Source of the DNA: Robiginitomaculum sp.
GTDB lineage: Bacteria > Pseudomonadota > Alphaproteobacteria > Caulobacterales > Maricaulaceae
Direction of reading: 5' to 3'
Assembly: GCA_015485335.1 (NCBI GenBank)
Contig: WFTT01000096.1
Span: 1-64,000, forward strand
Length of the DNA: 64,000 bases
The translations under genes were made by a program, and so were the position numbers. A model generated the notes under the pieces. It ran no database searches and was not told the origin of the DNA. It saw only the letters and a list, made by a program, of their open reading frames with translations. The first letter of the stretch is position 1. Every line of letters starts with the position of its first letter. Shown in pieces: positions 3,568 to 33,998 of the stretch.

Positions 3568-4269
3568 CTAATTACCGCTTTGATTGTTTTCATTACGCCG
3601 CAATGAGGCGACCAATGCCTGCAGATCCTGTTGGGCGCGCCGGGTAGCTTCGGCCATGCGGGCCTGGGCCTCGGGGGTAATGTCAAAGCTGCCATCGGCA
3701 TTGCGGGTTATGCCGGTGCTGCCCTGTGCCGGGGGGGTATCGGGGGTTTGCTCGGGAGCAGTCTTTGCATCTGTACCCACGACCAATTGCGCCCGCTTGT
3801 TCAGTAATGAAGCCACCCGTGTACCCTGTTCTTTTTCTTTCTGGGTCAGGGGCTTTTCCATTCTTTTGGCGGTTGGCAGTTTGCGGGGCGCCACCATGGG
3901 GCGGGCTTTGGAGGCCTTTCCCTTACGGCCCGACAAGACCACCAGACGGGTAATTTTGCGGGTGCCATCGGCCCGTGGCACCGTTTGGAAGGCATAATCG
4001 GAGTTTCGCAAAAGGCGGCGCAGTACCGTTTCCAGTGGGCCCTCATAGACGCCGGTGATCATGGGGTTTTCCACCAGTTTGGCGGTCCCACTGACTTTGA
4101 TGCCGGCGGTTTTGGAGATTGCGTTCAAAACACCGGTCAGGGGTTCGTTCTGGGCATCCACCTGCCAGCCGGTTTCCTGGGCGGTGATGTTTACCTTGGC
4201 CTGTACAGCAGTGTTCGCCAGCACGGCGCACAGCACGCCAAGGCCAATGGTCTTTAGCCGGTTTTGCAT
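3568..4269 (-). CDS. Periplasmic protein with secretin/TonB short N-terminal (STN-like) domain
   Basis: Secreted 233-aa protein. A signal peptide is visible (MQNRLKTIGLGVLCAVLANTAVQA). Residues about 30-100 resemble an STN domain: a stretch with NEPLTGVLNAISKTAGIKV and LETVLRRLLRNSDYAF, the beta-alpha-beta fold found before secretins and FecA-type receptors. The remainder is basic, Pro/Ala-rich and probably disordered, ending in a helical segment. There is no secretin or barrel domain. ATG at 4269 is chosen because GGAGGAAG lies 5 bases upstream; the longer frame to 4344 lacks this. It sits downstream of the metalloprotease gene near the secretion locus, so a role as an accessory to secretin assembly is possible but unproven. 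Confidence 0.7.
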   Translation of the reverse strand: MQNRLKTIGLGVLCAVLANTAVQAKVNITAQETGWQVDAQNEPLTGVLNAISKTAGIKVSGTAKLVENPMITGVYEGPLETVLRRLLRNSDYAFQTVPRADGTRKITRLVVLSGRKGKASKARPMVAPRKLPTAKRMEKPLTQKEKEQGTRVASLLNKRAQLVVGTDAKTAPEQTPDTPPAQGSTGITRNADGSFDITPEAQARMAEATRRAQQDLQALVASLRRNENNQSGN

Positions 4270-4422: not shown

Positions 4423-6510
4423 TTAGGGCGCACTGCGTACCGCCACGGATGTCGCCCCGCGCAAGACCGAGCCTTCCTTGAAGCGGGCAAAAATGCGCTT
4501 TTGGGCAAAATCAGCAATGATGGTGGCGGTTTCCGTCACAAAAAACGAAAAGGTTGCCGTTTCATCGGTAGCCAGGGTTTTGTTGACCGAGGCCGCCGGT
4601 GGTGCCTTACAGGCCGCGGTTACCGGGTCGGTTTCACAGACGCTCACCGTGGCGGTAACGCCCGCGCTGGGCTCGCCAGTAACCGTAACCGTGCCGGCGG
4701 TGCCGATATTACTGACTGAAACACTGAACGCGCCGGTGCCACCACCGGTTTCCACAATGCCCGGGGTGGGGGCGGCGGCCAGGGCAATCACGTCCATTAC
4801 CGGGCCGGTTTCGGCGACAAAGGACAATGTGTTCAGGCCCGGTATGGATTCTGCCGACTGACGATTATCACAGGAAAACTCAATCGCCAGATCCGCGCCG
4901 GTAAAGGTGTCCGACGTCAGTGTGGGGACAAAGCCCGCATAAGCCGCGCCCGGAGTGATGGCAAAGGTAAAGTTTTGCACCCCGCCGCCCGGTATGCTGA
5001 CCGGTGTATTGGCCGGTGCTGAACTGGGTGATGTGGCGGTATAGCTGAACTGGCCGGCGCTGGCGCCAGGCAGGGACAGCTTGCATCCGGTGGCTGTGCC
5101 GGTGCCGGCCGGATTGATGATCGTGGCAAAGGCGGTAGCCGTGGCATCGGACTTGATGGACCGGCTGACCGGCAATACAGACGAGACCAGACGTGCCGCC
5201 GGGGTGTTAAACGTGCCGACATTCTTGCCCTGTTCGCGCATGGAACGGGCCACATCCGCCTCTGCCGTGCCACAGGGAGTGCTGCCCTGACCAGACCCGC
5301 CGGGGTCGGTGCATTTGTTCAGGGACGGGTTGGAATAAAAGCCCAGACGGGTGTTCCCGCCGGTGGCCATAATGGTTTTAAAGTCGCTGCCGACCAGATA
5401 ACCGTGGGAATAGCTGAATACGCCGTCTTCGGGGCTGGTGGCGATGTCATGGGTATTGCCCATATTGTGGCCAATCTCATGGGCCAGGGTAAACACAGAA
5501 CACAGGGAAAATGAGCCCGAGGGGGGGGCATCAACATCAATGTTGTCGCTGACCGTATTAAATCCGAATGGCGAGGAAGACAGGCCAATGGTATTGGTGC
5601 CCCCCGTGCCCAGAACATAGCCGGTGCCACAGGAGATATGGGTGGATTCCTTAAACCGGCGAATATAGGTGACAATATCAATACCCTTGGCCGCCTTGAT
5701 GGCCGCAATGCCGGAAAAGTCACCATCGGCATTGTTGGCCCCGTCTTTAAGGTCCGTCAGGGTGTCGCCATTGGACTTTGTCTGTGTACCGGATACTTCG
5801 CTGATATGCACCAGATTGGCGCGAATGCCGGTCAGGCTGTCGGTCATGGCCGTGTCATAAAGCTGTACCAGAAATTGCAGGCGGGCAGACAGGCCCAGAC
5901 CCCAGCGGTCGCGCATGGAGGAATGATAGAATATACCCACATCCACGGTGCCGTTGCTGCCACTGGCGGCGGGGCGGGCAATGCCTTTGCCTTTGGGGCT
6001 GGCGCTGGCCCGAACAGCCCCCGGCGGCGGGGTGATGCTGTCATTGACCAGATCAATCTCTTTCAGGCCGGGCGCTGTGCTGGAATAAAGTACATATCCG
6101 GCGGCATTTTGCGCCGGTTCAATCAGATAAAGTCCATGGTCATAGGTGATGGCGGCAAAGGTGAAGCCATTGACTTCGGTCATCACAATGCGACCACGAT
6201 TTGTGCCTTTACCGGCCCAGCCAAGCCAGGATTTTCCACCCAGTGCATGTCCTTTTATGGTTTCCAGCGCTGCTGGGACCATCTTGCCATTGGGCAGGAA
6301 AATATCGGCCGTTTGCCCGGGTTGCATACTGAAAATAAGGTCGGCATTCAGATTGATATAGGCTTTGTCAAACCCGTTTATGCTGGTGCTTTGTGCCCGC
6401 TCTGAAGCAGAGACGCCTTTATGGTTTTGAATTTGCCACAGCGGGCTGGCCATAACGCTTTGGCTGCATAGCCATGACAATCCCACAATGATGAAAAAAA
6501 GACGACGCAT
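4423..6510 (-). CDS. Secreted reprolysin-like zinc metalloprotease with shared C-terminal domain
   Basis: Predicted extracellular endopeptidase of the metzincin group, 695 aa. A signal peptide occupies residues 1-21. An N-terminal domain, possibly a propeptide, runs to about 185. The catalytic domain holds HEIGHNMGNTHD, with zinc ligands His344, His348 and His354 and catalytic Glu345. A Met-turn TIMATGG is followed by the typical YSNP. Residues 441-695 are clearly related to the C-terminal region of the divergent subtilase: LPVSRS...ATAFATIIN, QNFTFAITP, CETDPVTAAC and RFKEGSVLRGATSVAVR. ATG at 6510 is chosen because AGGGGG precedes it and a signal peptide follows. Export through Sec and the adjacent type II system is inferred from context. 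Confidence 0.88.
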   Translation of the reverse strand: MRRLFFIIVGLSWLCSQSVMASPLWQIQNHKGVSASERAQSTSINGFDKAYINLNADLIFSMQPGQTADIFLPNGKMVPAALETIKGHALGGKSWLGWAGKGTNRGRIVMTEVNGFTFAAITYDHGLYLIEPAQNAAGYVLYSSTAPGLKEIDLVNDSITPPPGAVRASASPKGKGIARPAASGSNGTVDVGIFYHSSMRDRWGLGLSARLQFLVQLYDTAMTDSLTGIRANLVHISEVSGTQTKSNGDTLTDLKDGANNADGDFSGIAAIKAAKGIDIVTYIRRFKESTHISCGTGYVLGTGGTNTIGLSSSPFGFNTVSDNIDVDAPPSGSFSLCSVFTLAHEIGHNMGNTHDIATSPEDGVFSYSHGYLVGSDFKTIMATGGNTRLGFYSNPSLNKCTDPGGSGQGSTPCGTAEADVARSMREQGKNVGTFNTPAARLVSSVLPVSRSIKSDATATAFATIINPAGTGTATGCKLSLPGASAGQFSYTATSPSSAPANTPVSIPGGGVQNFTFAITPGAAYAGFVPTLTSDTFTGADLAIEFSCDNRQSAESIPGLNTLSFVAETGPVMDVIALAAAPTPGIVETGGGTGAFSVSVSNIGTAGTVTVTGEPSAGVTATVSVCETDPVTAACKAPPAASVNKTLATDETATFSFFVTETATIIADFAQKRIFARFKEGSVLRGATSVAVRSAP

Positions 6511-6785
6511 GATAACCCCCTGCCTCTCGTGACAACATATCTGCGCTCGTCTGAATGCAAAAACCGGAATGATCGGCGAGCACGGGACGTGTCTTAGCGC
6601 ATCATACATGAACGTCAGCTGAAACGCTAAGAATTTTTGTTTAGGACAAGGGTTGTTAACGCCATTTGCAAAAACCGCTTTGCATCTTTTATGCAGAGGG
6701 ATAGACTGGAAATGGTTGATACAAACGTTAGTAAGAATGTCTGCTCTGGCCGGAATACTTGTCAGGCCATGCAAAAGGAAATTTT
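6511..6785. promoter_or_regulatory. Divergent promoter region of the two protease genes
   Basis: 275 bases with no supported gene, more AT-rich than the flanking coding sequence. A 7-base inverted repeat, CTTAGCG at 6593-6599 and CGCTAAG at 6625-6631, sits near the middle. Both protease genes start from here, so a shared regulator is plausible. I could not assign -35/-10 boxes with confidence. Confidence 0.5.
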
Positions 6786-9700
6786 ATGTTTATTCGTGTT
6801 GTGCTTGCAGTTCTTTTTTTGTCATTTATGTCCACCGGCGTGTGGGCTGAATCGGGGAAAATAAAACTGGAAGGACGGTCCATGGAACGCGCGGCCGCGG
6901 GTGAGCGGGTGCGGGTGATTGTCGGATTCTCCTCGCCGCAGGGCGTGGCCTCTGGCGGGGACCTGGCGAATAATGTTCAAAAAGGCGAAAAACTGGCCAT
7001 TACCTATTCTTCGGTTCTAAGCAATGCGTTTGGCCAGGGATTTGTTGATGCCTCGGGCCTGTCGGGCATCAAAGTGGCCAAGGACAAGCCAACTGTCGTT
7101 CGCAAGTTTCGCAATGTGGCGGGCATGGCGCTGTATCTTACCCGTGATGAAATGGAAAAACTGGCCGCTGATGCCCGGGTAACGGGGATTGTTACCGACC
7201 GGCTAATGAAGCCCAGCCTGAATGAATCCACCGTGCTGATCGGTGCACCAGCGGTGTGGGCCACTGGCAGTGATGGTGCCGACTATGCGGTGGCTGTCCT
7301 GGATACCGGTTCTTCCCTGAACCATGTCATGATCAGTGGCAAAGTGGTTGGCTCGGCATGTTTTTCAACCACAGATGCGGCACAAAATGCCGTCTCCCTG
7401 TGTCCCGATGGCACCAACCAGCAAATTGACGCGGCGGCGGGGGATACCTGTCCCGTGGATGACCCGGCCACCAACGGCACTACCGAAGGCATAGACGGGT
7501 GCAGCCATGGCACCCATGTGGCTTCGACGGCCATGGGCGGAGCCTTTACCCTGTCTTCTGGCACCACGGTGCAGGGGGTTGCCAAGGGCGCCAAGCTGGT
7601 CGCGGTACAGGTGTTTACCAAATTTACCGAACCGGCCGATTGTGACCCGGACAACACCCCGCCGGATCCTTCTACGGCCCCATGTATCCTGTCGTTCAGT
7701 TCTGACCAGCGCTCAGGACTGGATTATGTCCTGACCAATGCCGACACCATGAAAATTGCGGCGGTCAATATGAGCCTGGGTGGCGGCAAGGCGACTGCGA
7801 TCTGTGATAATAATGACATTGATACCCAGCAAATGAAGCAATTGATTGATCAGTTGCGGGTGAAGGGTGTGGCCACCGTGATTGCCTCTGGCAATGAAAG
7901 CTTTTCCGACGGGGTCAGCAATCCGGGCTGTATTTCTACGGCCATTACCGTGGGGGCCACCACCAAACAGGACGCCGTGGCCAGTTTTTCAAATTCTTCG
8001 CCAATGGTGGACCTTCTGGCTCCGGGCGTTGCCATTTTGGCTGCCTATCCCAATATTGGCGGTACCAATTATGGCGCAACGCTTAGCGGCACCTCCATGG
8101 CAACGCCTCATGTGGCCGGTGCATTTGCCCTGTTGAAATCTGCCAACCCCACGGCCACCGTGCAGGAAATCGAAGATGCGCTTAAGGCCACGGGCAAGCC
8201 TGTTCTGGATGGTCGTAATCTGTTGTACAAACCGCGGATCCGTGTGGATCTGGCCAATGCCCTGTTGGGCAATGGCGGCGGCGCAGGCATTGGTCAATTG
8301 GCCATTGCGCCGGCGGATGGTTTTTTCAGCATTGGTAATCCTGGCGATTCCAACAGCTTTGGTTCCAAAACCTATACCCTGACCAACAATAACAGCGGCA
8401 GCATTAGCTGGAGCGTGGTTGCAGACAAGGCCTTTATTGTGCTGAGTAAATCAGGCGGAACCCTGGCTGCCGGTGCAACCGATACGGTCGTGGTCACCGT
8501 GGATGCCAGCAAACTAGCCGGTGGCGGCGTTGGGTCTGATGATGGCACCGTGACCTTCAGTGTGGGCACCGATACGGCCATACGTTCGGCCGGGGCGACG
8601 GCCAATTTCCTGGCCAATAACGATTTTGCCGATGCGTTGCCCCTGTCAGGGCTGGAACCCACGGTCAACGGCACCAGCATCGGGGCGACCAAAGAAAACG
8701 GAGAACCCAATCACATTGGTGGTACCAATGCCGGGGGCGCGTCGATCTGGTATAAATGGATTGCCCCGCTCAGCACGTCGGTCAAAGTGACCACGGCAGG
8801 CAGTGATTTTGATACGGTTTTGGGGGTATATACCGGCTCCAGCGTACAAACCCTTACTCCACTGGCCAATAATGATGATGAAGACAATCCCAATAATATC
8901 CTGACCTCACTGGTTACCTTCAGTGCCGTCAAAGGCACCACCTATTACTTTGGGGTGGATGGGTATAACGGGGCCAGCGGCAACGTCACCTTGTCGGTGC
9001 TGATGTCCGGGGCATCGGGCAATGACGGGTTTGCTACGGCTACCACGATTTCCGGTGCCGCCGGTAGCGTCCAGAGCCATACGGTCAACGCAACCGCTGA
9101 AACCAGCGAGCCGGCACATGGCGGCTTGCCTGCAGCAAAATCCATCTGGTTCGACTGGGTGGCACCCACTGATGGCAATTTCAATTTCAACACAGATGGT
9201 TCGGATTTTGACACTATCCTGGCGGTTTATACTGGGGCCAGTGTGGATGCACTGACCGAGGTGGCGTCAAACGATAATCAAGGTGTTTCTGGCACAGCGG
9301 CGGCCGGCCCGGCTTTCTCGTCCGGGGCCAGCCAGGTCAGCTTTACCGCGACTTCGGGCACCACCTATCACATTGCCGTTGACGGCAAATCCGGCGCGTC
9401 CGGTCTGGTGAAACTGGGCTGGGCATCGGCCAGCGCGGCCCTGCCCAATCTGGTGACTGCGGTGCTTCCCTATGCCCGTTCGGTAAAAATCGGCACCCAG
9501 GCCACGGCCTTTATGACGGTGATCAATGCCGGTACGGTCGATGGTACCAATTGCTTTATCTCGCTCAGCCCGGGCGCGTTTAAAGGTGGCTTCACCTATC
9601 AGAAAACCGATGCGGCCAATGCGGCGGTAGGATCACCCAATACGCCGGCCACCATTGCTGCCGGGGCTTCGCAAAACTTTGTCTTTGCCATCACCCCGTC

Positions 9701-10208
9701 ACAGGTCATGAACCAGCAGGAGCTGGGCATTCAGGCCCAATGTGACGAGGGGACATCCTCTAATGTGACCACCGGTGTGAACAGCTTTGTGCTGTCTGCC
9801 GCCGAGGTAACCCCTCCGGATATGCTGGCCATTGGTCTGACGTCCAGTGGTGATGGGGTATTGTCCATGCAAGGCACGTCCGGTGCAGCGGCCGCTTCTA
9901 TTGCCACATCGGCGCTTGGCGGTGACGGCATCCTGAAACTGAGTGCAGATGATGGCGGTAAGGGCCTGGCGGTATCGCTGTTTGTTTGTGAAACCGATCC
10001 GGCCACGGCGGCCTGTCTGGCCAATCCGGTGTCCGAGCTGACCATTACCTCGGTGAATGGGGAAACCAGAACCTTTTCCGTATTTGCCAATGCCACCGGG
10101 GACATCCCGTTTGATCCGGCGAACAACCGTGTGTTTGTACGCTTCAAGGATACGGCAGGGGTTGTCCGCGGCGCGACCAACTTTGCCGTGCGGACGGTTG
10201 CACCCTGA
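6786..10208 (+). CDS. Secreted subtilisin-like serine protease with two pre-peptidase-type domains and shared C-terminal domain
   Basis: Extracellular S8 peptidase, 1140 aa. It has a signal peptide (residues 1-21), then an I9-like propeptide (about 35-145). The catalytic domain has Asp173 (AVLDTGSS), His244 (SHGTHVAST), oxyanion Asn370 (ASGNES) and Ser437 (SGTSMATPHVAG). A BACON-like beta domain follows (about 505-590), then two related beta-sandwich repeats of the pre-peptidase C-terminal type (NNDFADA... and NDGFATA..., each with SDFDT-L-VYTG). The last 252 residues (889-1140) match the metalloprotease C-terminus and end RFKDTAGVVRGATNFAVRT. ATG at 6786 follows AAAGGAAA. It converges on the secretion operon, whose last gene ends 16 bases away. 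Confidence 0.92.
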   Translation: MFIRVVLAVLFLSFMSTGVWAESGKIKLEGRSMERAAAGERVRVIVGFSSPQGVASGGDLANNVQKGEKLAITYSSVLSNAFGQGFVDASGLSGIKVAKDKPTVVRKFRNVAGMALYLTRDEMEKLAADARVTGIVTDRLMKPSLNESTVLIGAPAVWATGSDGADYAVAVLDTGSSLNHVMISGKVVGSACFSTTDAAQNAVSLCPDGTNQQIDAAAGDTCPVDDPATNGTTEGIDGCSHGTHVASTAMGGAFTLSSGTTVQGVAKGAKLVAVQVFTKFTEPADCDPDNTPPDPSTAPCILSFSSDQRSGLDYVLTNADTMKIAAVNMSLGGGKATAICDNNDIDTQQMKQLIDQLRVKGVATVIASGNESFSDGVSNPGCISTAITVGATTKQDAVASFSNSSPMVDLLAPGVAILAAYPNIGGTNYGATLSGTSMATPHVAGAFALLKSANPTATVQEIEDALKATGKPVLDGRNLLYKPRIRVDLANALLGNGGGAGIGQLAIAPADGFFSIGNPGDSNSFGSKTYTLTNNNSGSISWSVVADKAFIVLSKSGGTLAAGATDTVVVTVDASKLAGGGVGSDDGTVTFSVGTDTAIRSAGATANFLANNDFADALPLSGLEPTVNGTSIGATKENGEPNHIGGTNAGGASIWYKWIAPLSTSVKVTTAGSDFDTVLGVYTGSSVQTLTPLANNDDEDNPNNILTSLVTFSAVKGTTYYFGVDGYNGASGNVTLSVLMSGASGNDGFATATTISGAAGSVQSHTVNATAETSEPAHGGLPAAKSIWFDWVAPTDGNFNFNTDGSDFDTILAVYTGASVDALTEVASNDNQGVSGTAAAGPAFSSGASQVSFTATSGTTYHIAVDGKSGASGLVKLGWASASAALPNLVTAVLPYARSVKIGTQATAFMTVINAGTVDGTNCFISLSPGAFKGGFTYQKTDAANAAVGSPNTPATIAAGASQNFVFAITPSQVMNQQELGIQAQCDEGTSSNVTTGVNSFVLSAAEVTPPDMLAIGLTSSGDGVLSMQGTSGAAAASIATSALGGDGILKLSADDGGKGLAVSLFVCETDPATAACLANPVSELTITSVNGETRTFSVFANATGDIPFDPANNRVFVRFKDTAGVVRGATNFAVRTVAP

Positions 10209-10224
10209 TAACGCTAAACGCGCG

Positions 10225-10725
10225 CTAGTTGGAGACCCCGACGGGTAATTGCCATCGATCACCGTTGCGTTTAACGGTGACGGTATCGGCCTTGATTTCT
10301 TCAACGGTCCAGCCGTTGATTTGTTCGCCGGTGAAATAGCGATTAATGGTGCGCCGGTCCGTACGGACCATTACGGCACTGTTGGTTGGCCCGATGGCAA
10401 CGCCAATAATATCAATGTTTGGTGGCTGATCACTGGGTGGTCCATCATCGATGCTGGTGGTGGGCGTGACGGCAATGGCGGCGGGCTGGCGCGAGGGTAC
10501 GAAGATTGGCCGTTGCCATATTTCCTCAAACTTTGCCAGCGGGTCCAGAAACAAGACCTTGTTGATTTGCGCCGCATCAACGGGGGCTGGTCGCGGGCGT
10601 TCGGTGCGCGCCACGGGCGCGGCCAGATTGTCCCCTCCTTGCGGGTTCAGGACAAACCGGTCCAGCACAAACAAAGAGCCCAACACCCCCACGGTGGAAA
10701 GCAGGATAATCATGCGGCGGTTCAT
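10225..10725 (-). CDS. Type II secretion GspC-like inner-membrane protein
   Basis: 166-aa bitopic protein with one N-terminal membrane segment (IILLSTVGVLGSLFVLDRFV) and a periplasmic part. WQRPIFVPSRQP followed by a small beta-rich region (NIDIIGVAIGP...AVMVRTD...INGWTVEEI...DTVTVKRNG) resembles the homology region of GspC/PilP proteins. These link the inner-membrane platform to the secretin. It lacks a PDZ or coiled-coil extension. It is the last gene of the operon and overlaps gspM by ATGA. Genes of this type are often labelled GspN in alphaproteobacteria. As no other gspC is present in the run, I infer that it takes that place. Confidence 0.65.
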   Translation of the reverse strand: MNRRMIILLSTVGVLGSLFVLDRFVLNPQGGDNLAAPVARTERPRPAPVDAAQINKVLFLDPLAKFEEIWQRPIFVPSRQPAAIAVTPTTSIDDGPPSDQPPNIDIIGVAIGPTNSAVMVRTDRRTINRYFTGEQINGWTVEEIKADTVTVKRNGDRWQLPVGVSN

Positions 10726-11213
10726 GGGGCGCTCCGTTCATATTGGGCGCGTGCAGAAACCAGAATATCAACCGAAACGGTCTTGCCATTATCGGTGCTT
10801 AATCTGGCTCGCTCGACGATCAGCGCCGGCGGTTTGGCCTCAATTTCATAGAGAAAAGCCGCAATCGCCCGGGTTGATCCGCTTGCCTGTGCCGAGATTT
10901 TGACGCTGGCCGGATCGGCGGGGTCCACTGGGCGCGGCTCGGCCCGTTGCAGCGAAACCCCGGCCAGACGCGCCCCGGCGCGCAACCGGGTCAGCAAAGC
11001 CGCCCCGGCGGCCCCATGCGAGGGCGCCCGCAACAGATAAAGCTGTGGCAGGGCATCTTGATCGCTCTGGTTTGCCTGGTCTGCAATGGCGGTATCAATC
11101 TGTTGGCGCAATTGCCAGGCATGCAGGCCTGCCTGCATGGCGGCACCAATGCTGAGTATCAGGGCCAGCGCCCCCACCCCCAGCGCCAGCCAGGTCATAT
11201 GGCGGGCATTCAT
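10722..11213 (-). CDS. gspM: Type II secretion protein GspM
   Basis: 163-aa inner-membrane platform component. A single N-terminal membrane helix (MTWLALGVGALALILSIGAAM) is followed by a helical linker and a ferredoxin-like periplasmic domain. RARLAGVSLQRAEP and the later VDILVSARAQYE fit the GspM type b family. GspM pairs with GspL. It overlaps gspL and the GspC-like gene by 4 bases each (ATGA), which argues for translational coupling. Assignment rests on topology, size and the position after gspL. Confidence 0.8.
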   Translation of the reverse strand: MNARHMTWLALGVGALALILSIGAAMQAGLHAWQLRQQIDTAIADQANQSDQDALPQLYLLRAPSHGAAGAALLTRLRAGARLAGVSLQRAEPRPVDPADPASVKISAQASGSTRAIAAFLYEIEAKPPALIVERARLSTDNGKTVSVDILVSARAQYERSAP

Positions 11214-12190
11214 GGCCTGGCCTCTTTATGAACCGTGGTGGTCAAATCAAAACTTTCCTTGCCGTCCTCTTCTTTTAGAGACGCTGCCGCAAAGGAAGTC
11301 TCTCTAAAGATTTTCTGTGATTCGATGGCGCTAACCAGCATAGCCGCATCCTTGGCCTTGCCGGCAAGACGCAATCGTCCTTTTTCATAAATCATGTATT
11401 CCGCATAGGCGTCATCGGGCAATGCCTTGGTGGCCGCTTTCCATATGTTCAACACAGAAGGGGCCTGGGCTTTGGCCTGTTTTTGCAACATGGCCTGGTC
11501 GGTGCCATCGGGCCGACGCTGATCCAACAGCGCCGCGGCCGTAGGGGCCAGGGTCAGCGACGACCAGATGTTGATGGAAACTGCTATGGCGATCAGCACG
11601 GCACAAAGCCCCAATACCAGTTTGGCCGCGCTTTTGCCGCCGCCGGCCTTTTCTCCGCTGACCAGATCCGCATTTACCGGATCGCGCGGATCTTCACCAA
11701 GGGCATCCACCACTTTGGGTATGATACCCACCGCCGCCGCATGGCGCAGTATCTCTTCTATGATTGAACGCCGTGCAAAGCTGACCGGGAACTGGCACTG
11801 ATTGGCACCATCCATCTGGCCGCTGCCATGGACGGCAAAGGCGGTATCTTCTTCGGGAAAGGGAAAATACTGTTTCATGGAAAGTGCAATGGTGGCCGTG
11901 GGGTCATGGCGCGCGGCCAAAGGCAGGGTAATGGTGCGCTGTTGGCCCAGCCCTTCGCCCAGGCGCAGGCAGATCCGTTTGTGTTTGGCCAATTGCTGTA
12001 ATTGCGTTTCGTCCAGCGGGCGTAAGGCGCCGGTGTCATCGACCATGGCATATTGGCCGTCGCGATTAACGACGATGATATCCCAATTGGGCCGAAACCA
12101 TGCGCCCAGGCCGGGTACCTGGGCCATGCCTTCGTCAAAGCGGCGCGACCATTGCGCCCATAATCCTGAAATTGTATTAGAAATTGACAT
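11210..12190 (-). CDS. gspL: Type II secretion protein GspL
   Basis: 326-aa bitopic protein. The cytoplasmic part (1-189) should bind the ATPase GspE. A membrane helix lies at about 190-210 (LVLGLCAVLIAIAVSINIW), followed by a periplasmic fimbrial-assembly-like domain that pairs with GspM. LSMKQYFPFPEEDTAF in the cytoplasmic part resembles the PilM/GspL group. ATG at 12190 is preferred; the frame stays open to 12292 but runs inside gspK. The start lies 14 bases inside the gspK 3' end. The cytoplasmic part is short for a GspL, so some actin-like subdomains may be reduced. Confidence 0.8.
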   Translation of the reverse strand: MSISNTISGLWAQWSRRFDEGMAQVPGLGAWFRPNWDIIVVNRDGQYAMVDDTGALRPLDETQLQQLAKHKRICLRLGEGLGQQRTITLPLAARHDPTATIALSMKQYFPFPEEDTAFAVHGSGQMDGANQCQFPVSFARRSIIEEILRHAAAVGIIPKVVDALGEDPRDPVNADLVSGEKAGGGKSAAKLVLGLCAVLIAIAVSINIWSSLTLAPTAAALLDQRRPDGTDQAMLQKQAKAQAPSVLNIWKAATKALPDDAYAEYMIYEKGRLRLAGKAKDAAMLVSAIESQKIFRETSFAAASLKEEDGKESFDLTTTVHKEARP

Positions 12191-13091
12191 CTTTGGCCCT
12201 GGTTTCATAAATTTGCGCCGCTTCCCCAAAGGGCAAAGTGCGCCTTGAAAGAATGGCATACTCACCCGGGCGTGGTCCAGTTGAGAAAACAAGGCGCATG
12301 GCCTGTTTTGTCCCGCTGGGCAGTTCGGCCTCGACCATCAAAAGGTATCGCCCTTCTGGTGTTTTGGGTTTGTCGGCATCGGCTTTTTCTTTTGTGTCGG
12401 CAAAGCTGTCCGGGGATAACGGGGTGCTGGCATTGCGCCGCCGGTCCAGTATTTCATCGCGCTCGGCGGCACTAAGGGGCAACAGTGCCAATACAGGTTC
12501 GGGGGCGCTTAGCGGATCTGGCTCGCTATTGCCCGGCCCGGCGGTCAAAAAGGGAGCCGCGGCCTGATACAGCTCTGCGGTCATGCCCAGAACACCGCGC
12601 AGTTCGCTGACATCAATAAACCGTCGATTGCCCGGCCCCGGCAGACCCGCATTCTGATAGGCGCGGGCCTCGGCCCCGCGGGGGCGTTCCTTGTCATTTT
12701 TATCGCGCCAGTCGGCAATGGTATCGGCCATGGATTCCGCATCCGGTGCATTCAGGCCCAACTGCATAAAAAACGCGGTCAGTAATTTTTTCTTGGCCCC
12801 GTTCAGGTCAATCAGCCCCCGGGTGTCTACCAGCCAATATGTGAGATTGATGCCATGAATTGCAAAATGATAAGGGCGACCATCGGCATAAAGCGGTGAG
12901 GCATCGTTCAGTTCCAGCACCGATCTGGCCAGCACTGCCTCGCTGGCGGCGCGGGCCTGGGCCAGGTCGATGGTAACCCCAACCTCCTTGGCACCCAGCC
13001 TTGCCGACAGGCTGGCTATGGCCAGGGCCGCCGATGCCGCCGTCAGCACCGCAATGACCATCAATAATATAAAGCCGTCCTGCTTTTTCAT
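12177..13091 (-). CDS. gspK: Type II secretion minor pseudopilin GspK
   Basis: 304-aa minor pseudopilin that, with GspI and GspJ, forms the tip of the pseudopilus. The prepilin cleavage region is KKQDG|FILLMVIAVLTAASA; as usual for GspK the mature protein lacks Glu5. The large alpha-domain insert that sets GspK apart is present (DTRGLIDLNGAKKKLL... with INDLN-like helices and a salt-bridge-rich region). ATG at 13091 overlaps the gspJ stop as ATGA and is preceded by GGTGGCGGG. The frame extends further upstream only inside gspJ. Confidence 0.9.
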   Translation of the reverse strand: MKKQDGFILLMVIAVLTAASAALAIASLSARLGAKEVGVTIDLAQARAASEAVLARSVLELNDASPLYADGRPYHFAIHGINLTYWLVDTRGLIDLNGAKKKLLTAFFMQLGLNAPDAESMADTIADWRDKNDKERPRGAEARAYQNAGLPGPGNRRFIDVSELRGVLGMTAELYQAAAPFLTAGPGNSEPDPLSAPEPVLALLPLSAAERDEILDRRRNASTPLSPDSFADTKEKADADKPKTPEGRYLLMVEAELPSGTKQAMRLVFSTGPRPGEYAILSRRTLPFGEAAQIYETRAKDVNF

Positions 13092-13750
13092 CCCGCCACC
13101 TTTGGTTTGGGGGCGGTTTTGTTTTTCTTTTTCTTTTTGTCTTTTTCTGTAACCACTTTGGCCAGGCGGGGCAGGGCAATGCTCAGGCTGGGCCAATGGT
13201 TCAGGCCAAAACTGACCATATTGGGCGGCACGTCCTTTTTCGCCCAGTCGGTTTGCCAGCCTTCATCGCTGCCATAGACAAAAACGGGGGGCTGGGTATC
13301 GGTATAAAGGTTCAGGCGTGCCGGGTTCTGCATGGTGCCAAATTCTGCCGGATCGCTCAGCAATTCACGTTCCAGATTAAAGGCCCACTGCCCATCCGGG
13401 GTTTTGACGCTGTACAGATAATACTGATAAATCCCAGCCCGGGATGGATAGCCCGGCTCGACCCGGACAAAGCGGACTGCATGTTGATTGCCCTCAAACA
13501 GGGCGATGGTATTGCCCTCGACCTTGTGGGTCATGGGCAAGGCATCGGCGAGCATTTTTTCGGCAAATTGATACAGGCCCACCGCCCTGGAATTATTTTC
13601 TTCGGCCTCTTTGAGCTGTCCCGTCCACCGGCGCACATTGGTCGAGGCCTGGGCCGTGATGATCAGGGTCATGCCGCCAATCACCAGGGCGATCAACAAT
13701 TCGGCCAGGGTCAGTCCGGCGCGGCGATCCATGGGCGTGATTCTGGTCAT
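13088..13750 (-). CDS. gspJ: Type II secretion minor pseudopilin GspJ
   Basis: 220-aa minor pseudopilin of the tip complex. Prepilin leader MTRITPMDRRAG is followed by LTLAELLIALVIGGMTLI, with Glu at mature position 5. The C-terminus is strongly basic (KDKKKKKNKTAPKPK), an unusual tail for a pseudopilin. It overlaps gspI and gspK by 4 bases each. The leader would be cut by the prepilin peptidase encoded upstream at 22721-23506. Confidence 0.88.
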   Translation of the reverse strand: MTRITPMDRRAGLTLAELLIALVIGGMTLIITAQASTNVRRWTGQLKEAEENNSRAVGLYQFAEKMLADALPMTHKVEGNTIALFEGNQHAVRFVRVEPGYPSRAGIYQYYLYSVKTPDGQWAFNLERELLSDPAEFGTMQNPARLNLYTDTQPPVFVYGSDEGWQTDWAKKDVPPNMVSFGLNHWPSLSIALPRLAKVVTEKDKKKKKNKTAPKPKVAG

Positions 13751-14103
13751 GGTGATGTCGTTCGTTCGGTAACCAGGCGCACTCGTCGCCCCGATGGCGC
13801 CTCGGCCAGCACGTCATAACGCAGCAGCTTAACCCCATCCTCGCGCTCGACCACCACATTGGCATTCAGGGTCCAGGCAATGCCGTCGGTAATGCCCTGG
13901 CTGTGTATTTCCACAGGTTTCAGCGTGTTTTCCGCCAATACGGATTTGGCCACCAGGACGGATCGTTCAGTTTCGGCACTGGCCTTGGTCAGGCGCACCG
14001 CCCCGCCCAGGCCCTGAAACACCAGCGCAAATCCCACCGAGGCCAGCGCCGTGGCAATGATGGTTTCGATCAGGGTAAAGCCCGCATTATCAGGATTGCG
14101 CAA
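13747..14103 (-). CDS. gspI: Type II secretion minor pseudopilin GspI
   Basis: 118-aa minor pseudopilin. The leader ends NAG, followed by FTLIETIIATALASVGFAL with the conserved Glu5. The start codon is TTG: GGGGAGG lies 6 bases upstream, which makes this unusual start convincing. The short globular domain and its place between gspH and gspJ fit GspI. It overlaps gspH by 14 bases and gspJ by 4. Confidence 0.88.
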   Translation of the reverse strand: MRNPDNAGFTLIETIIATALASVGFALVFQGLGGAVRLTKASAETERSVLVAKSVLAENTLKPVEIHSQGITDGIAWTLNANVVVEREDGVKLLRYDVLAEAPSGRRVRLVTERTTSP

Positions 14104-14569
14104 GACGGACCTCCCCGTTTGCCCAGATCACTTCGATTTTGTGCACCATGGTGCCAATGCCCAGCTCTATTTCTCCGCCGGTGCTCATGCCATCGGCAAA
14201 AAAGCGAATGCCAATGGTTTCGTCCGAGGATTCTATGTCTGCCCCGGTGGCCTTTAGCGACAGTTTGGGGTCAAGATCCAGACTTTTGTCCTGTCCCTCG
14301 ATCCAGATCTGTTTTTGTACCGGGTCGATCAATACCTTCGTTGACTGGCCTTCGCGTCGGGCGCTGATCTTGGCAAACCGCAATAAATTGACCAATTGCG
14401 CACTCTGGGTACGCATCAGGGCCGGGTCCGAACGCATGGTGATGCGCGGCGCCGCAATGGCGGTAACCAGGCCAAGAATCATCAACACCACCAGCAATTC
14501 CGCCAGAGTGTAGCCGCGCGTGCGGCTTTTATCAGATGTCGGCTGATGAAATGTCGGCGTTTTCGCCAT
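14090..14569 (-). CDS. gspH: Type II secretion minor pseudopilin GspH
   Basis: 159-aa minor pseudopilin. A long leader (MAKTPTFHQPTSDKSRTRG) precedes YTLAELLVVLMILGLVTAIAAP, with Glu5 present. The ATG at 14569 has AAGG about 8 bases upstream; a longer frame to 14623 runs inside gspG. It begins 38 bases before the gspG stop. The C-terminal beta-rich domain (VLIDPVQKQIWIEG) is typical of GspH/FimT proteins. Confidence 0.87.
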   Translation of the reverse strand: MAKTPTFHQPTSDKSRTRGYTLAELLVVLMILGLVTAIAAPRITMRSDPALMRTQSAQLVNLLRFAKISARREGQSTKVLIDPVQKQIWIEGQDKSLDLDPKLSLKATGADIESSDETIGIRFFADGMSTGGEIELGIGTMVHKIEVIWANGEVRLAQS

Positions 14570-14981
14570 CTCCGCCTTCCCGTTTGTCGGCCCCAAGGGT
14601 TTTGATGACAAAACTGCCGCCAATGCCGGGTTGATAGATATAGGGGTTACCCCAGGGATCCGTTGGCACCCGTTTGGTTTTCAGATACGGCCCATCCCAG
14701 TTCGGGGTGTTTGGTGGCGGACTGATCAGGGCTGACAGGCCCGTGGAGGCCGAGGGGTATTGCCCGGTATCCAGCTGATAATATTCCAGCGCCGTGGACA
14801 GATTGGAAATCTGCACCCGTGCGGTCTTGGTTTTGGCCTTGCCGATCTGACCCAGAAACCGGGGCGCAATCAGCCCGACCAGCAGGCCCAGAATGACCAG
14901 CACCACCAGCAATTCAGTCAGCGTATAGCCGTCGCGTCCGGTAGAGGTTTTTTCTTCGTTTTGCGGTTTTTCTTCTGACAT
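14532..14981 (-). CDS. gspG: Type II secretion major pseudopilin GspG
   Basis: 149-aa major pseudopilin that polymerises into the pseudopilus. Leader ending GRDG is followed by YTLTELLVVLVILGLLVGLIAP. The body has LEYYQLDTGQYPS and TDPWGNPY, both hallmarks of GspG; the aspartate-rich C-terminus probably binds calcium. ATG at 14981 is preceded by GGAA at a good distance, whereas the in-frame TTG at 14993 has no ribosome-binding site. It is the most conserved member of the cluster and fixes the system as a genuine type II secretion apparatus. Confidence 0.95.
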   Translation of the reverse strand: MSEEKPQNEEKTSTGRDGYTLTELLVVLVILGLLVGLIAPRFLGQIGKAKTKTARVQISNLSTALEYYQLDTGQYPSASTGLSALISPPPNTPNWDGPYLKTKRVPTDPWGNPYIYQPGIGGSFVIKTLGADKREGGDGENADISSADI

Positions 14982-14982
14982 T

Positions 14983-16179
14983 TCAAATTCCAATATCGTT
15001 GACGCTCACAAGAGCAAGAAGAATGGAGACAATAATAACACCAACGATCAGGCCAACAAAGCCGATCAGCGCCGGTTCGGCCAGGTGCAGGGCCGTGCGG
15101 GCGCCGCGCTCCAGCCGGTTTTCCAACAAGGTGGCCAGCCGGTCGGTGGCTTTGCCCAGCTCGCCGGTCTGTTCGCCCACCCGGATAATCTCGACGGCCA
15201 AAGGGGGCAGAACCCCCGTCTGTGCAACCTGGTCAGGCAGCGAGGCCCCGCGGCGCACTTGCGTCAGGGCTTCGTCCAACTTCATTTTGGCGTAATCATC
15301 GCTAAGGCTGGCACTGGCCAGCCGAAAGGCCGGCACCGCAGAGAGACCGTTTTGCAGCAAGACCGCCAGCACCCGGCAAAACCGGGCCGCCAACATGGAA
15401 CGCAATAACGGGCCGATGCCGGGCAGGCGGTGGGCAAAGGCATAGGCACTGCGCCGGGCTTCCTGCCCCCTAAGCCACAGACCCATCAAAAAGGTAGTAC
15501 CCGCCCCGATGACCAGAATAAACGGTGCGGCCTTGGCCAAGCCCCGGGCGGTGGCAAATACGCCGGCGGCAAAGGGCGGCGGTGCGGCCCCCATGTCGGC
15601 AAAAACCTGTTCAAAACGGGGTACCACAAAAACCAGCAAACCCGATACGGCGACAAAGGCCAGCACCAGAAGGATGATGGGATAGACCAGCGCGCCTTGT
15701 ATTTCGCCATCAAAATTGGCGCGACGTTCCTGCCAGTCGGCCAGATCATTCAGGGCGGCTGGCAAGGCGCCGGAAACCTCGCCGGCTTCGGCAATCTGGG
15801 GAAAGGGTGGTGGAAAAATTTCGGGCCGGGCGGCAAAGGCATCGGCCAGGCTCATCCCGGCGCGAATATCTTCGCGCAGCGACATGGCCACGTTTTGCAT
15901 TAATGACGAGCTGACATAACGCGACAGGCTGGATAAGGCCTGCTCGACCGTCAGGCCTGCGCCGGTCAGCGCGCCCAGTTCGCGCACAATGCGGCTGGCC
16001 GCCGCCGTTGCGCCGCGCGGCGGGCGTTTTTTGCGCGGTGGATTGCTGGGCTTGGCCGATATCGGGGTCAGGCCCCGGGCACGTACTTTGGAGGCGGCCT
16101 CAATGGACGAACTGGCCTCGATATAGATTTCGCTTTGCACCCCATCATTGGAGACCGCTTTGACGAGAAAGCCACTCAT
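14983..16179 (-). CDS. gspF: Type II secretion inner-membrane platform protein GspF
   Basis: 398-aa polytopic protein with two repeated GspF/PilC cytoplasmic domains (about 65-190 and 265-390) separated by membrane segments (PIILLVLAFVAVSGLLVFVV, and a final helix IGFVGLIVGVIIVSILLALV). FCRVLAVLLQNGLSAVPAF and the later ETGELGKATDRLA are typical. It couples the ATPase to pseudopilin extrusion. Its ATG overlaps the gspE stop as ATGA. Confidence 0.94.
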   Translation of the reverse strand: MSGFLVKAVSNDGVQSEIYIEASSSIEAASKVRARGLTPISAKPSNPPRKKRPPRGATAAASRIVRELGALTGAGLTVEQALSSLSRYVSSSLMQNVAMSLREDIRAGMSLADAFAARPEIFPPPFPQIAEAGEVSGALPAALNDLADWQERRANFDGEIQGALVYPIILLVLAFVAVSGLLVFVVPRFEQVFADMGAAPPPFAAGVFATARGLAKAAPFILVIGAGTTFLMGLWLRGQEARRSAYAFAHRLPGIGPLLRSMLAARFCRVLAVLLQNGLSAVPAFRLASASLSDDYAKMKLDEALTQVRRGASLPDQVAQTGVLPPLAVEIIRVGEQTGELGKATDRLATLLENRLERGARTALHLAEPALIGFVGLIVGVIIVSILLALVSVNDIGI

Positions 16180-17813
16180 GCAGATGGCCCCACATGCTCG
16201 CCAATGACGCGCCAGATTTCATTGGCATCGGTCAGGCCAGCGGCAATTTTGGCGCGGCCATCATCAGCCAGCGACAAGGCACCGGCCTTGCGCGCGGCCC
16301 GTTCAAATTCCAGCGCAGACAGGCCTGGCTGGATCATATCCAACAGTTCTGCGTTCAGCTCGATGCTCTCGTAAAGGCCGGTGCGTCGGTGATAACCGGT
16401 GTTGGCACAGGCATCACAACCAACGGCCGTCCATTGACCTTTGACTTTCTTTTTGCATTTAGGACATAACAGCCGGATCAGCCGTTGCGACAGGATCAGC
16501 CGCAAGGTTGAACGCAGCAGGGATGGATCTATGCCCATATCAATCAGGCGCGCCGGGGCACCGGCGGCGGTATTGGCGTGCAGGGTGGCCAGCACCAAAT
16601 GCCCGGTTAGCGCCGCATTAACCGCAATTTCTGCGGTTTCCTGATCGCGCAGTTCGCCCACCACTATGACGTCCGGATCCTGGCGCAAAACTGAACGCAA
16701 GGCGTTGGCAAAGGTCAGACCGACCGCGGGACGAACGGCAATCTGGGTAACCCCGTCGATCTGGTATTCCACCGGATCTTCGATGGAAATGACTTTGCGT
16801 TCAGGGGTGTTCAACGTGCTGATCGCACCGGCCAGCGTGGTGGTTTTACCCCCCCCGGTGGGGCCAACCACCAGGATCAGGCCAAACGGGGCAGCCAGCG
16901 TTTTCATCAACAGGGTTTCATCTTTTTCACTCAGGCCCAGATTGTGCAGATTGACCTCAGAATCGCGATCTTCCAACAGGCGGATGACTACGCTTTCACC
17001 ATGGGCACTGGGGGTGGTGGCCACCCGCAAATCCAGCGGCGTTCCCGAAATGCTGACCCGGGCGCGGCCATCCTGTGGCCGGCGGCGCTCGGCAATATCC
17101 AGATCGGCAATGATCTTGATGCGCGATACCACCAGTTGCGCCAATGAGGCACTGGGGGATTCGCGATCATGCAGCACTCCGTCAATACGAAGGCGTATGC
17201 GCAGGCGATCGCGATAAGGTTCGACATGAATATCCGAGGCGCGGTTCGCCAGGGCATCCTTGATCAGATCATTAACCAGACGCACCACCGGGGCTTCGCT
17301 GGCCAGATCGCGCAAATGTTCGGCATCGGCATCATCCGCGCTGGACGTATGCGTTGGATCGGTTGTGTCTTCGGGGGTGCCAAAATAACGGGCCAGGGCG
17401 GCCTCGATATCGGCAAGCGGGGCCAGCGCCAGGGTGACCGGTTTGCCCGTGGCCAGCGCCACCGCATCGGAAATATCTGGCACGGATGGGTCGGCCAGGG
17501 CCAACAGCACACCATCTTCATTAATCTGGGCAATACAGGCTTGGCTGGAATTCAGAAATTCCGGATTAATGGCCCCTTCGGCGGGATCTTCTTCGGCAAA
17601 ATCCTTGGCCGAAAGCCGGGTCAGACCATGGGCCTTGGCCAGGGCATCGGCGATGGCCATATCGCTTAGAAAGCCCAGACGCCGCACTACTGAGGCCAAC
17701 GGTTCGCCACTTTCCTGGGCCGCCCGAACGGCCCGTTGGGTATCGGCCGGGTTTAGCCCGGCAATTTCCAGCCAGCCTGTCGATTCCAGTGTATCCAGCA
17801 TTACATCAGCCAT
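16176..17813 (-). CDS. gspE: Type II secretion ATPase GspE
   Basis: 545-aa hexameric cytoplasmic ATPase. It has an N-terminal MshEN-like domain. The P-loop is GPTGGGKTTTLAG, the Asp box lies around VISIEDPVEYQIDGVTQ, Walker B is PDVIVVGELRDQETAE, and the His box is TGHLVLATLHANTA. A zinc-binding four-cysteine element follows (CPKC...CDAC), as in true GspE proteins. It starts only 2 bases after the rgpF-like stop, so the glycan module and the secretion core share a transcript. All catalytic motifs are intact. Confidence 0.96.
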   Translation of the reverse strand: MADVMLDTLESTGWLEIAGLNPADTQRAVRAAQESGEPLASVVRRLGFLSDMAIADALAKAHGLTRLSAKDFAEEDPAEGAINPEFLNSSQACIAQINEDGVLLALADPSVPDISDAVALATGKPVTLALAPLADIEAALARYFGTPEDTTDPTHTSSADDADAEHLRDLASEAPVVRLVNDLIKDALANRASDIHVEPYRDRLRIRLRIDGVLHDRESPSASLAQLVVSRIKIIADLDIAERRRPQDGRARVSISGTPLDLRVATTPSAHGESVVIRLLEDRDSEVNLHNLGLSEKDETLLMKTLAAPFGLILVVGPTGGGKTTTLAGAISTLNTPERKVISIEDPVEYQIDGVTQIAVRPAVGLTFANALRSVLRQDPDVIVVGELRDQETAEIAVNAALTGHLVLATLHANTAAGAPARLIDMGIDPSLLRSTLRLILSQRLIRLLCPKCKKKVKGQWTAVGCDACANTGYHRRTGLYESIELNAELLDMIQPGLSALEFERAARKAGALSLADDGRAKIAAGLTDANEIWRVIGEHVGPSA

Positions 17814-17815
17814 GT

Positions 17816-18865
17816 TTACATAAACCGTCCGCGCATCGTGAATTCCAGATGTCTGGTAATAAGATCAGTATCATAATCACTGACGCCACGGATCAGCTTT
17901 TCCCACAGGTACAAACTGGGTAAAGCCGAGGGATTGGACTGTAATATTTCCTTCTTGATGAAGGGAAACTGAAATTCAGTGATCAGGCGATCCCAGAAAA
18001 AGTGCGTGACATTAAGGGGCGCGCCATGTTCGGCGTGTTCGAATATCCGCTTTAAAAATTTTCTGGTGGACGGCAACAGGCTCTTGTCCTGCAGGATTGA
18101 GGCATCTCCAATATGGTCAAAAAAATCGGCCAGCAGAACCCGATACGGAAATACCGCCCGCGTTCGTAATCCGGCCTTGCGCATATCGCTGGACAAGCCA
18201 ATTTCATGTTTGCGGATCACCCATGATTTTGACGGCACATGGATATAATTATGCCAGCGTTTCTGGAATGCCGTATTGCCCAGTATGGCCTGATGAAATA
18301 CCAGAAAATAGCTCTGCATGTGGTGCGCCGAATCCCAGCTGTCGGTCAGGCCCCACATATCGGCAATGGCCGGGTCCATGGCCTGGTAAATTTTATCCAG
18401 CGGATATAGCGGGCCATAGGCACTGTCATTGCAAAGCGTGATTGAGTTATAGGCGGACAAATCCCCCAACAGCTTCATGCCATCGGCATAGGCACCAAAA
18501 TCATAACCCTTGTTCTTGCGCCACAAAACCGGCTCGCACAGCCCGTCGAGCTTGCGCCGTTCCTCATCGGGGAATTTAGGACTGTTGGTAATGAAAATGA
18601 CCGCGCGGCCTGCATCTCTTAGTGCTTTTATATATTGCAGCACATATCCGTGCACGCGCCCCTGTTTGTCATAATGGACAAAAATGGCGACATCCTTGTG
18701 CACATTGGCTTCGGGCAAATTCCCCCAGCGCTGGCGGATATAGGAGCCGCGGCCAAAGATCAGTGCCCAGCCAAACTTAGCGTATTGCACCACATAATCA
18801 TTACGCTCTCTGGCACCGAAAAACAGCATCCAGAAGCGTCGAAGCATGTTCCATATTTTTTTCAT
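17816..18865 (-). CDS. RgpF-family (rhamnan synthesis F-like) glycosyltransferase
   Basis: 349-aa cytoplasmic protein. The family features are visible: VAIFVHYDKQGRVHGYVLQY, FITNSPK, then KNKGYDFGAYADGMKLL and LCNDSAYGPLYPLDKI. These segments recur in RgpF-like transferases of rhamnan and O-antigen clusters. It probably adds sugar to a polysaccharide or decorates a glycan exported by the adjacent ABC transporter. There is no membrane segment beyond a weakly hydrophobic N-terminus. The start lies 6 bases after the methyltransferase stop. The sugar specificity cannot be read from the sequence. Confidence 0.82.
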   Translation of the reverse strand: MKKIWNMLRRFWMLFFGARERNDYVVQYAKFGWALIFGRGSYIRQRWGNLPEANVHKDVAIFVHYDKQGRVHGYVLQYIKALRDAGRAVIFITNSPKFPDEERRKLDGLCEPVLWRKNKGYDFGAYADGMKLLGDLSAYNSITLCNDSAYGPLYPLDKIYQAMDPAIADMWGLTDSWDSAHHMQSYFLVFHQAILGNTAFQKRWHNYIHVPSKSWVIRKHEIGLSSDMRKAGLRTRAVFPYRVLLADFFDHIGDASILQDKSLLPSTRKFLKRIFEHAEHGAPLNVTHFFWDRLITEFQFPFIKKEILQSNPSALPSLYLWEKLIRGVSDYDTDLITRHLEFTMRGRFM

Positions 18866-18871
18866 ACTCTT

Positions 18872-22695: not shown

Positions 22696-22720
22696 AAAAC
22701 CTTTTGCCCCAGCACAGCCC

Positions 22721-25683: not shown

Positions 25684-25762
25684 GTCACTATGCTCCACGG
25701 GTTCGACTGGTTAGCAGATCAATCCGTCTGACCCAAGCGTTCCCAGGTAAAAATACACCTCA

Positions 25763-33860: not shown

Positions 33861-33914
33861 GCAATCTCAGCGATATCCGGTATCATCATACGCAGGTTAT
33901 CAAATGCCCGTGTG

Positions 33915-33932
33915 GTGTCATCGCGGTGTCAT
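33915..33932 (+). promoter_or_regulatory. PHO box (PhoB-type direct repeat) upstream of the porin gene
   Basis: GTGTCAT-CGCG-GTGTCAT: two identical 7-mers with a 4-base spacer, an 11-base period, as in the PhoB consensus CTGTCAT-N4-CTGTCAT (one mismatch per half, six of seven matching). It lies 67 bases before the chosen porin start. It implies phosphate-starvation induction of the porin and probably pstS. Confidence 0.75.
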
Positions 33933-33998
33933 ATTCCCTTTCTAGAGGAGGCCTGCCGGGCGCAGATTGTCCGGCAGCATTTTCCTGGAGGGGTAAAC

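Follow-up and report, generated by a model that had tools for sequence, protein, structure and literature searches.

Why should two secreted proteases with unrelated catalytic parts end in the same domain? The question is raised by a divergent gene pair, encoding a metzincin and a subtilase, in a 64,000-nucleotide stretch of Robiginitomaculum sp. DNA (contig WFTT01000096.1, positions 1 to 64,000), hereafter the window. Using BLASTP, we confirmed homology between the tails of the two proteases (39% identity over 263 columns, 125 bits, E 2e-39); an initial annotation of this DNA had claimed that they align along their whole length, and they do. The pair adjoins a type II secretion system (T2SS) operon, and we propose, at a probability of about one half, that the shared domain is a portable, folded cargo or anchor module of a specialised, glycan-coupled T2SS pathway. 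In alphaproteobacteria, the domain is predicted not by T2SSs generally but by a particular T2SS operon that contains genes for an RgpF-type glycosyltransferase and a methyltransferase.

The catalytic parts of the two proteases were unrelated, as had been stated. The metzincin matched Pfam Reprolysin_3 (3.1e-10), with NCBIfam matches to Mep72 (1.8e-26) and CpaA (1.2e-7) that were both far under their cut-offs. The subtilase matched Peptidase_S8 (7.8e-35) and contained the motif GTSMA; its BACON_2 and PPC matches were under the Pfam cut-offs. Translation likely starts at ATG 6510 in the metzincin gene (695 aa) and at ATG 6786 in the subtilase gene (1140 aa). The T2SS operon ends with gspC, and the 3' end of this gene is 16 bases from the subtilase stop codon. 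The motifs that had been listed as landmarks of both tails were present, except that "LP-x-R-S" is actually LP-x-x-R-S. The metzincin stretch lies on the minus strand, which had gone unmentioned, and the subtilase stretch on the plus strand. The range 4426-10205 was correctly given for the pair but covers only part of a larger family, as the genome contains eight copies of the domain.

We next asked whether the domain belongs to a known family. Neither window tail had a Pfam or NCBIfam match over cut-off, in agreement with the initial annotation, which had recognised no named family, and neither ends in a hydrophobic helix of the CTERM type, which had also been noted correctly. Among 39 diverse members, NCBIfam gave no matches, and Pfam gave ASH, an immunoglobulin-like (Ig-like) family, alone, as a weak match in three members (best E 0.0019); the window subtilase tail scored 15.2 for ASH against a cut-off of 27. 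Identity with a known family was thus rejected, as nothing exceeded the cut-offs in either database. A sequence search of the PDB with the domain gave a best E of 0.11, plasmid records gave no match, and none of 18 pattern matches in viral contigs was a relative. These results support a new domain of ~250 residues, present on many unrelated signal-peptide proteins of these marine bacteria.

An AlphaFold2 model of the subtilase tail, based on 39 sequences, had a predicted local distance difference test score (pLDDT) of 96.2 and a predicted template modelling score (pTM) of 0.90, with 18 strands and no helix. In this model, the domain is two Ig-like beta-sandwiches, and the halves (~1-120 and ~121-252) grouped with Ig-like domains in both Foldseek and VIA. 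The VIA matches included a region of a bacterial sialidase (Z 10.4, 95 residues, root-mean-square deviation 2.2), which we take to be its Ig-like linker domain. The biofilm protein RbmA was also matched in VIA/Foldseek (Z 8.0, 202 residues, root-mean-square deviation 9.0), as was CEP192 SPD-2, and VesC was among the Foldseek rows. Evidence that the two halves arose by internal duplication was weak (hhalign P 0.019, probability 2.4%). The invariant positions were Cys, Pro, Arg, Asp, and one Thr in C-x-T. Because Cys 35, 98, 180, and 189 (subtilase-tail numbering) were invariant in the 39 sequences, two disulphides are suggested, probably 35-98 and 180-189.

The position of the domain was then examined in 107 complete proteins, drawn from 136 distinct domains at fetched loci; orthologues were included, and the 29 cut by locus ends were excluded. 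The domain was C-terminal, with at most 8 residues left, in 67 proteins; in 26 it directly followed the signal peptide, and the other 14 had it at an internal position. The C-terminal tag proposed in the initial annotation was therefore not borne out, and a strict tag of this kind was rejected, as 40 of the 107 proteins carry the domain elsewhere. Processing by end-cleavage is unlikely for the same reason. In the 67 C-terminal cases, the few remaining residues leave no room for a hydrophobic helix; the short C-terminal motif, hydrophobic helix, and basic end of GlyGly-CTERM, MYXO-CTERM, or PEP-CTERM-type sorting tags were not found. No chain among the 107 contained two copies. A signal peptide or lipobox was detected by a crude home-made rule in 103 of these proteins, compared with 194 of 468 control open reading frames, and the four that were missed looked signal peptide-like by eye. 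The partners were diverse, including metzincins, subtilases, GH114, di-haem cytochrome c peroxidase, M23, esterase, DUF1800, DUF5666, and FG-GAP proteins. Six of the 14 internal cases (L063, L065, L071, L072, L073, and L076), all long proteins of 1225-1948 residues, continue beyond the domain with a 114-116-residue tail. The two tails that were read, those of L063 and L076, are alike and contain P-x-G-x-W, and the ~115-residue tail may represent an additional unnamed module.

A profile built from both tails found the eight copies on seven contigs of the genome, which is 98.97% complete. Up to 20 copies per genome were found in relatives, and 35 in one metagenome-assembled genome (MAG) of Pseudomonadales. 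Its distribution was patchy. Within the family, 27 of 137 genomes carried the domain, in 3 of 19 genera. Across the order it occurred in 16 of 398 genomes (5 of 59 genera, 3 families), across the class in 3 of 385, own genome included, and across the phylum in 1 of 398, which was the own genome; in the counts for order, class, and phylum, and in the order-wide RgpF count below, scoring was limited to the 5 to 7 best first-look candidates of each genome, so weak copies could escape. Three genomes (G1174, G1175, and G1176) repeated G077, G082, and G766, with identical listings, and were excluded from the counts. Carriers among 34 loci included Robiginitomaculum sp. MAGs, Maricaulis sp. IN14, and Hyphobacterium sp., together with MAGs of Gammaproteobacteria, Burkholderiales, Methylomirabilota, Pseudomonadales, Rhodospirillales, and Deltaproteobacteria. 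Contig L098 (3.6 kb), assigned to Lysobacterales, was 100% identical to the window subtilase tail; it probably comes from the window organism or a close relative and was placed in the wrong bin. One copy, G766:C50:20033-20779, had an in-frame TAA stop and is possibly a decaying gene. G011 (L238) and G015 (L237) each carried a single copy, on a subtilase beside T2SS genes, with a short Ser-rich tail of ~20 residues after the domain.

We also asked whether the domain follows T2SSs as such. Among 61 relatives, 19 were first counted as carriers; one of these, G038, was marginal (E 3.7e-4 with the two-sequence profile), gave no match with a larger domain profile, and was then classed as domain-less. 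GspD was over cut-off in 15 of the 18 carriers and in 34 of the 43 other relatives (Fisher p = 1), so plain T2SS presence was rejected as a predictor. The outcome that had been named as fatal, a domain widespread in genomes without T2SS, was not observed either: among 36 domain genomes, GspD was over cut-off in 31, partial or lower in 4 (G001, G004, G005, and G082), and lacking in 1 (G080).

The T2SS operon of the window (10225-27436, minus strand) carries, between gspE and gspD, genes for an RgpF-type glycosyltransferase, a methyltransferase, a Wzm/Wzt-like ABC pair, and a prepilin peptidase. These internal glycan genes, and the small STN-like partner gene near the metzincin, were absent from the initial annotation. 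Operon-type RgpF (>480 bits) was found in the same 16 of 398 order genomes as the domain and in none of the other 382; use of the identical 398 genomes in both counts was deduced from the listings. Six domain-less order genomes had weaker RgpF matches, of 83 to 259 bits. Fisher p was 7e-29 by genome and 2e-7 by genus (5/5 vs 0/54), both uncorrected for kinship; members of the same genus do not count as independent. The RgpF model was trained on 10 sequences, 8 of them from the 16 positive genomes and chosen for a domain near GspD; the other 8 positive genomes lay outside the training set. Among 21 further genomes, RgpF was detected in 14, comprising 10 domain-bearing genus mates, G077, G136, and two Rhodospirillales (347 and 373 bits). 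The seven misses were five non-alphaproteobacterial genomes, G080, and G009, a domain-less genus mate (81% complete) that also lacked RgpF and GspD over cut-off. The coupling of the domain to this hybrid operon is thus well supported. The earlier suggestion that the domain serves the neighbouring secretion operon as a tag survives in this respect, whereas its C-terminal rule and its link to T2SSs in general do not.

The order gspD, methyltransferase, RgpF, gspE recurred in genera g7 and g5 of the same family and in families f2 and f4, five genera in total, and RgpF and the methyltransferase were present in every hybrid operon compared; the f4 operon had a weak methyltransferase match and several unrecognised gsp genes. 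In all five genera, domain-bearing protease genes lay at one end of the operon with the STN-like gene beside them (on a separate contig in G136 of g5). By subtraction of listed coordinates, 19 genomes of five genera and three families had a full GspD gene no more than 15 kb from a domain. Fetched stretches of the second T2SS loci of domain-less G021, G025, and G029 contained no RgpF and no methyltransferase.

A similar gene set was found in the Rhodospirillales genome G766, where one contig carries, in order, a pseudopilin-like gene, gspF, gspE, pilD, RgpF, two adjacent domain genes (one of them short), a second RgpF, a methyltransferase gene, the STN-like gene, and a metzincin with the domain; gspD, gspK, and gspG are on another contig. 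Its genus mate G687 has the STN-like gene, the methyltransferase, two RgpF, gspE, and gspF together. In a GspE tree, nine Caulobacterales hybrid operons formed one side of a branch (100/99) and the Rhodospirillales GspE fell outside it; two warnings attach to this tree, one that long branches meet (among control and Rhodospirillales rows) and one that row L136 is long. The cassette thus seems to have joined two T2SS lineages, which favours function over shared descent alone.

The small signal-peptide protein lp3568 provided a further link. Its STN-like gene was found in 32 of the 36 domain genomes (one weakly, E 2.4e-9) and in none of 43 domain-less genomes; 14 of the 32 lay outside the training set of 18 sequences. 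In the 31 genomes with strong matches, the distance to a domain gene, again by subtraction of listed coordinates, was at most 260 bp in 24 and at most 4 kb in 30. The AlphaFold2 model of lp3568 had a mean pLDDT of 70, with residues 31-110 in blocks of 81-90. Foldseek matches to this model were not significant (best E 0.1, a putative anti-sigma factor; PilQ N0, E 0.35), and a PDB sequence search gave a best E of 0.17. We regard lp3568 as a candidate periplasmic adaptor.

Taken together, gene linkage and co-occurrence suggest that the domain proteins are cargo of this T2SS. They would leave the cytoplasm via their signal peptides and fold in the periplasm with the putative disulphides. The folded cargo would then be handed to the operon's T2SS, perhaps via the STN-like protein encoded alongside. 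At the surface, a glycan built or modified by the RgpF-type glycosyltransferase and the methyltransferase would bind and retain the cargo; export of that glycan may, in this genus, fall to the Wzm/Wzt pair. More tentatively, and with the odds somewhat against it, this could be a second Gram-negative protein-display pathway comparable to the type IX secretion system (T9SS), in which a T2SS with glycan genes and an STN-like adaptor would fix unrelated enzymes to the surface via a position-independent tandem-Ig domain.

Several observations weigh against the cargo/anchor proposal. The Ig-like fold class is common and names no function. Pfam STN was matched, weakly, by 5 of 18 sequences (best 0.011), with lp3568 itself under cut-off, so the assignment is weak. 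Wzt-like and Wzm-like genes were not found in the g7, g5, f2, and f4 operons compared, and the PMT_2 gene, which lies beside gspD in g7 operons too, was not seen in the g5, f2, and f4 stretches. The fetched stretch of G687 contained no domain gene. G080, with 20 copies of the domain, gave no match for GspD, RgpF, or the STN-like gene; as this MAG is only 69% complete, the operon may be missing from the assembly. The five non-alphaproteobacterial domain genomes all had GspD over cut-off and lacked operon-type RgpF, and three of them also lacked the STN-like gene. The expectation that the domain would be limited to genomes with this operon therefore held within the order and failed beyond the class. 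Finally, dispersed copies had methyltransferase-model matches at only 3 of 27 loci not linked to the operon, some with short flanks.

In four of those five genomes, glycan genes nevertheless adjoin a domain gene. The neighbours are Wzt, Wzm, an epimerase, the STN-like gene, and a sulfotransferase/methyltransferase/glycosyltransferase protein in Pseudomonadales L196; Wzt and methyltransferase-glycosyltransferase genes in Methylomirabilota L107; a rhamnosyl O-methyltransferase and a methyltransferase-glycosyltransferase in Burkholderiales L106; and a sulfotransferase-methyltransferase-glycosyltransferase in Deltaproteobacteria L127. On the short contig of Gammaproteobacteria L105, where no Pfam scan was made, no glycan gene was recognised. 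As most dispersed copies lack a nearby methyltransferase-model match, this neighbourhood is suggestive only.

The best of the alternatives, which we nonetheless consider unlikely, is that the domain is an export signal only: a structural ticket for the T2SS or its STN-like adaptor, with the cargo released and the glycan genes serving otherwise. A single copy per protein and a free position in the chain are as expected of a folded recognition module, and both the T2SS and the STN-like gene are linked to the domain. Known T2SS substrates reportedly have no common sequence or structural feature, which leaves cargo recognition unresolved (PMC10128026). However, an export signal does not account for RgpF and the methyltransferase in every hybrid operon compared, or for the glycan genes next to domain genes in four genomes that lack the operon-type RgpF.

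Less likely again is an ordinary Ig-like adhesion or stabilising module, whose link to the operon would reflect shared islands and lineage rather than function. The fold class and the five RgpF-less genomes outside the alphaproteobacteria fit this explanation, but adhesion repeats usually occur in tandem and no tandem copies were seen in the 107 proteins. The co-occurrence of 16/16 vs 0/382 and the recurrence of the cassette with a second GspE lineage also argue against it. Least probable is that the domain is a glycosylation acceptor, modified in the periplasm by a PMT-like or other transferase so that the glycan forms an anchor or a protective coat: RgpF, the methyltransferase, the ABC exporter, and the PMT_2 enzyme are all in the window operon and T9SS cargo is anchored via sugar (PMC7468200), but PMT was not seen in the g5, f2, and f4 stretches compared, no acceptor motif was recognised among the invariant positions, and there is no terminal processing site.

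We then compared the proposed cargo/anchor module with known systems. The C-terminal domain (CTD) of T9SS cargo has an Ig-like fold and, to our knowledge, is always C-terminal and removed. In contrast, the machine here is a T2SS and the domain's position is free, and the 26 N-terminal and 14 internal cases rule out membership of the CTD family. The likeness lies in many unrelated cargos with one domain, surface-fixed through a sugar anchor (PMC7468200). GlyGly-CTERM, processed by rhombosortase in Vibrio, is likewise a common tag on T2SS cargo that reaches the cell surface, and its bearer VesB also contains an Ig fold (PMC6219818). A rhomboid protease cleaves this tag, which is short and built of three parts, glycine, hydrophobic, and basic, unlike a 250-residue folded domain found at any position without a hydrophobic tail. 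MYXO-CTERM, the myxosortase tag, marks dozens of proteins per genome for a T2SS route to the surface (PMC11980579), but it is a short, lipidated, cleaved tail, whereas here the domain is folded and no cleavage site was seen.

A precedent for the gene layout is the Aeromonas S-layer, which is tethered by lipopolysaccharide; its vapA gene and the T2SS genes are neighbours of Wzm/Wzt in an O-antigen cluster (PMC4413209, PMC4483657). This Sps system resembles the window in clustering T2SS genes, a cargo gene, and Wzm/Wzt; Sps has a single cargo, VapA, whereas the present domain is common to many proteins. CpaA-CpaB is similar in pairing a metallopeptidase cargo with a dedicated neighbouring partner gene (PMC4713064), and the window metzincin weakly matches CpaA. 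CpaB, however, is a membrane-anchored SRPBCC protein with one cargo, compared with an STN-like signal-peptide protein and many cargos here. The T2SS and ElpS of Caulobacter are described in PMC2996285.

In the titles and abstract openings of open-licence PMC literature, we found no shared T2SS cargo domain beyond GlyGly-CTERM and MYXO-CTERM, and no RgpF within a T2SS operon. If our proposal is true, this would be a portable folded cargo domain common to T2SS substrates that is described nowhere in the literature searched. Up to 35 proteins per genome carry it, and in alphaproteobacteria it travels with one kind of T2SS operon. The domain offers a simple swap test of recognition, as well as sequence-based prediction of T2SS cargo in these bacteria, and it suggests that protein secretion and surface-glycan synthesis may be connected.

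The features of the window that bear on this proposal are listed in Table 1. The long C-terminal part of the methyltransferase (MT769) appears TPR-like by eye.

Table 1. Coordinates of the protease genes, their shared domains, the STN-like gene, and the T2SS operon in the window.
Feature	Position	Strand	Basis
Small signal-peptide protein lp3568, STN/secretin-N0-like	3568..4269	-	Homologues near domain genes
Secreted metzincin (Reprolysin-like, HEIGHNMGNTH), signal peptide, C-terminal shared domain	4423..6510	-	Start inferred
Shared domain, C-terminal on metzincin	4426..5190	-	39% identity to subtilase tail, E 2e-39; own-genome profile match
Secreted subtilase (Peptidase_S8), BACON-like and two PPC-like stretches, then shared domain	6786..10208	+	Start inferred
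Shared domain, C-terminal on subtilase	9450..10205	+	BLASTP, landmarks, own-genome profile match, AlphaFold2 model
gspC-like	10225..10725	-	Pfam T2SSC 4e-4, under cut-off; operon place conserved
gspM	10722..11213	-	Pfam T2SSM_b 2.3e-11
gspL-like	11210..12292	-	Pfam PilN 1.7e-5; place conserved
gspK	12177..13196	-	Pfam T2SSK_1st 1.1e-20
Pseudopilins gspJ, gspI, gspH, gspG	13088..14993	-	Sequence and order; homologues in same order in other genomes
gspF	14983..16179	-	Named from sequence and order
gspE	16176..17813	-	Operon place; groups with homologues of eight other hybrid operons (100/99)
RgpF-type glycosyltransferase	17816..18865	-	Pfam RgpF 1.5e-35; same place in other operons
Methyltransferase (Methyltransf_23), MT769	18872..21181	-	Pfam 2.7e-21; conserved
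Wzt-like ABC ATPase	21150..22016	-	Pfam ABC_tran 1.5e-19
Wzm-like ABC-2 permease	21874..22695	-	Pfam ABC2_membrane 2.8e-18
Prepilin peptidase	22721..23506	-	Pfam A24_N_bact 9.7e-22, Peptidase_A24 1.6e-14
gspD secretin	23503..25698	-	TIGR02517, 430.8 bits, cut-off 351.35
PMT_2-family membrane glycosyltransferase, upstream of gspD	25763..27436	-	Pfam PMT_2 3.6e-22

Other genes were recognised beyond the operon. The stretch 27716-30832 encodes an outer-membrane beta-barrel protein with a carboxypeptidase-regulatory domain, homologues of which lie beside PMT-gspD in g7 operons. It is followed by a phosphonate/phosphate uptake cluster (31090-36317) with an ABC ATPase, a phosphonate-binding protein-permease fusion, a porin O/P, and a phosphate-binding-like protein. 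Further along, a Tricorn-like protease with PD40, Tricorn C1, PDZ, and S41 domains is encoded at 51818-55153.

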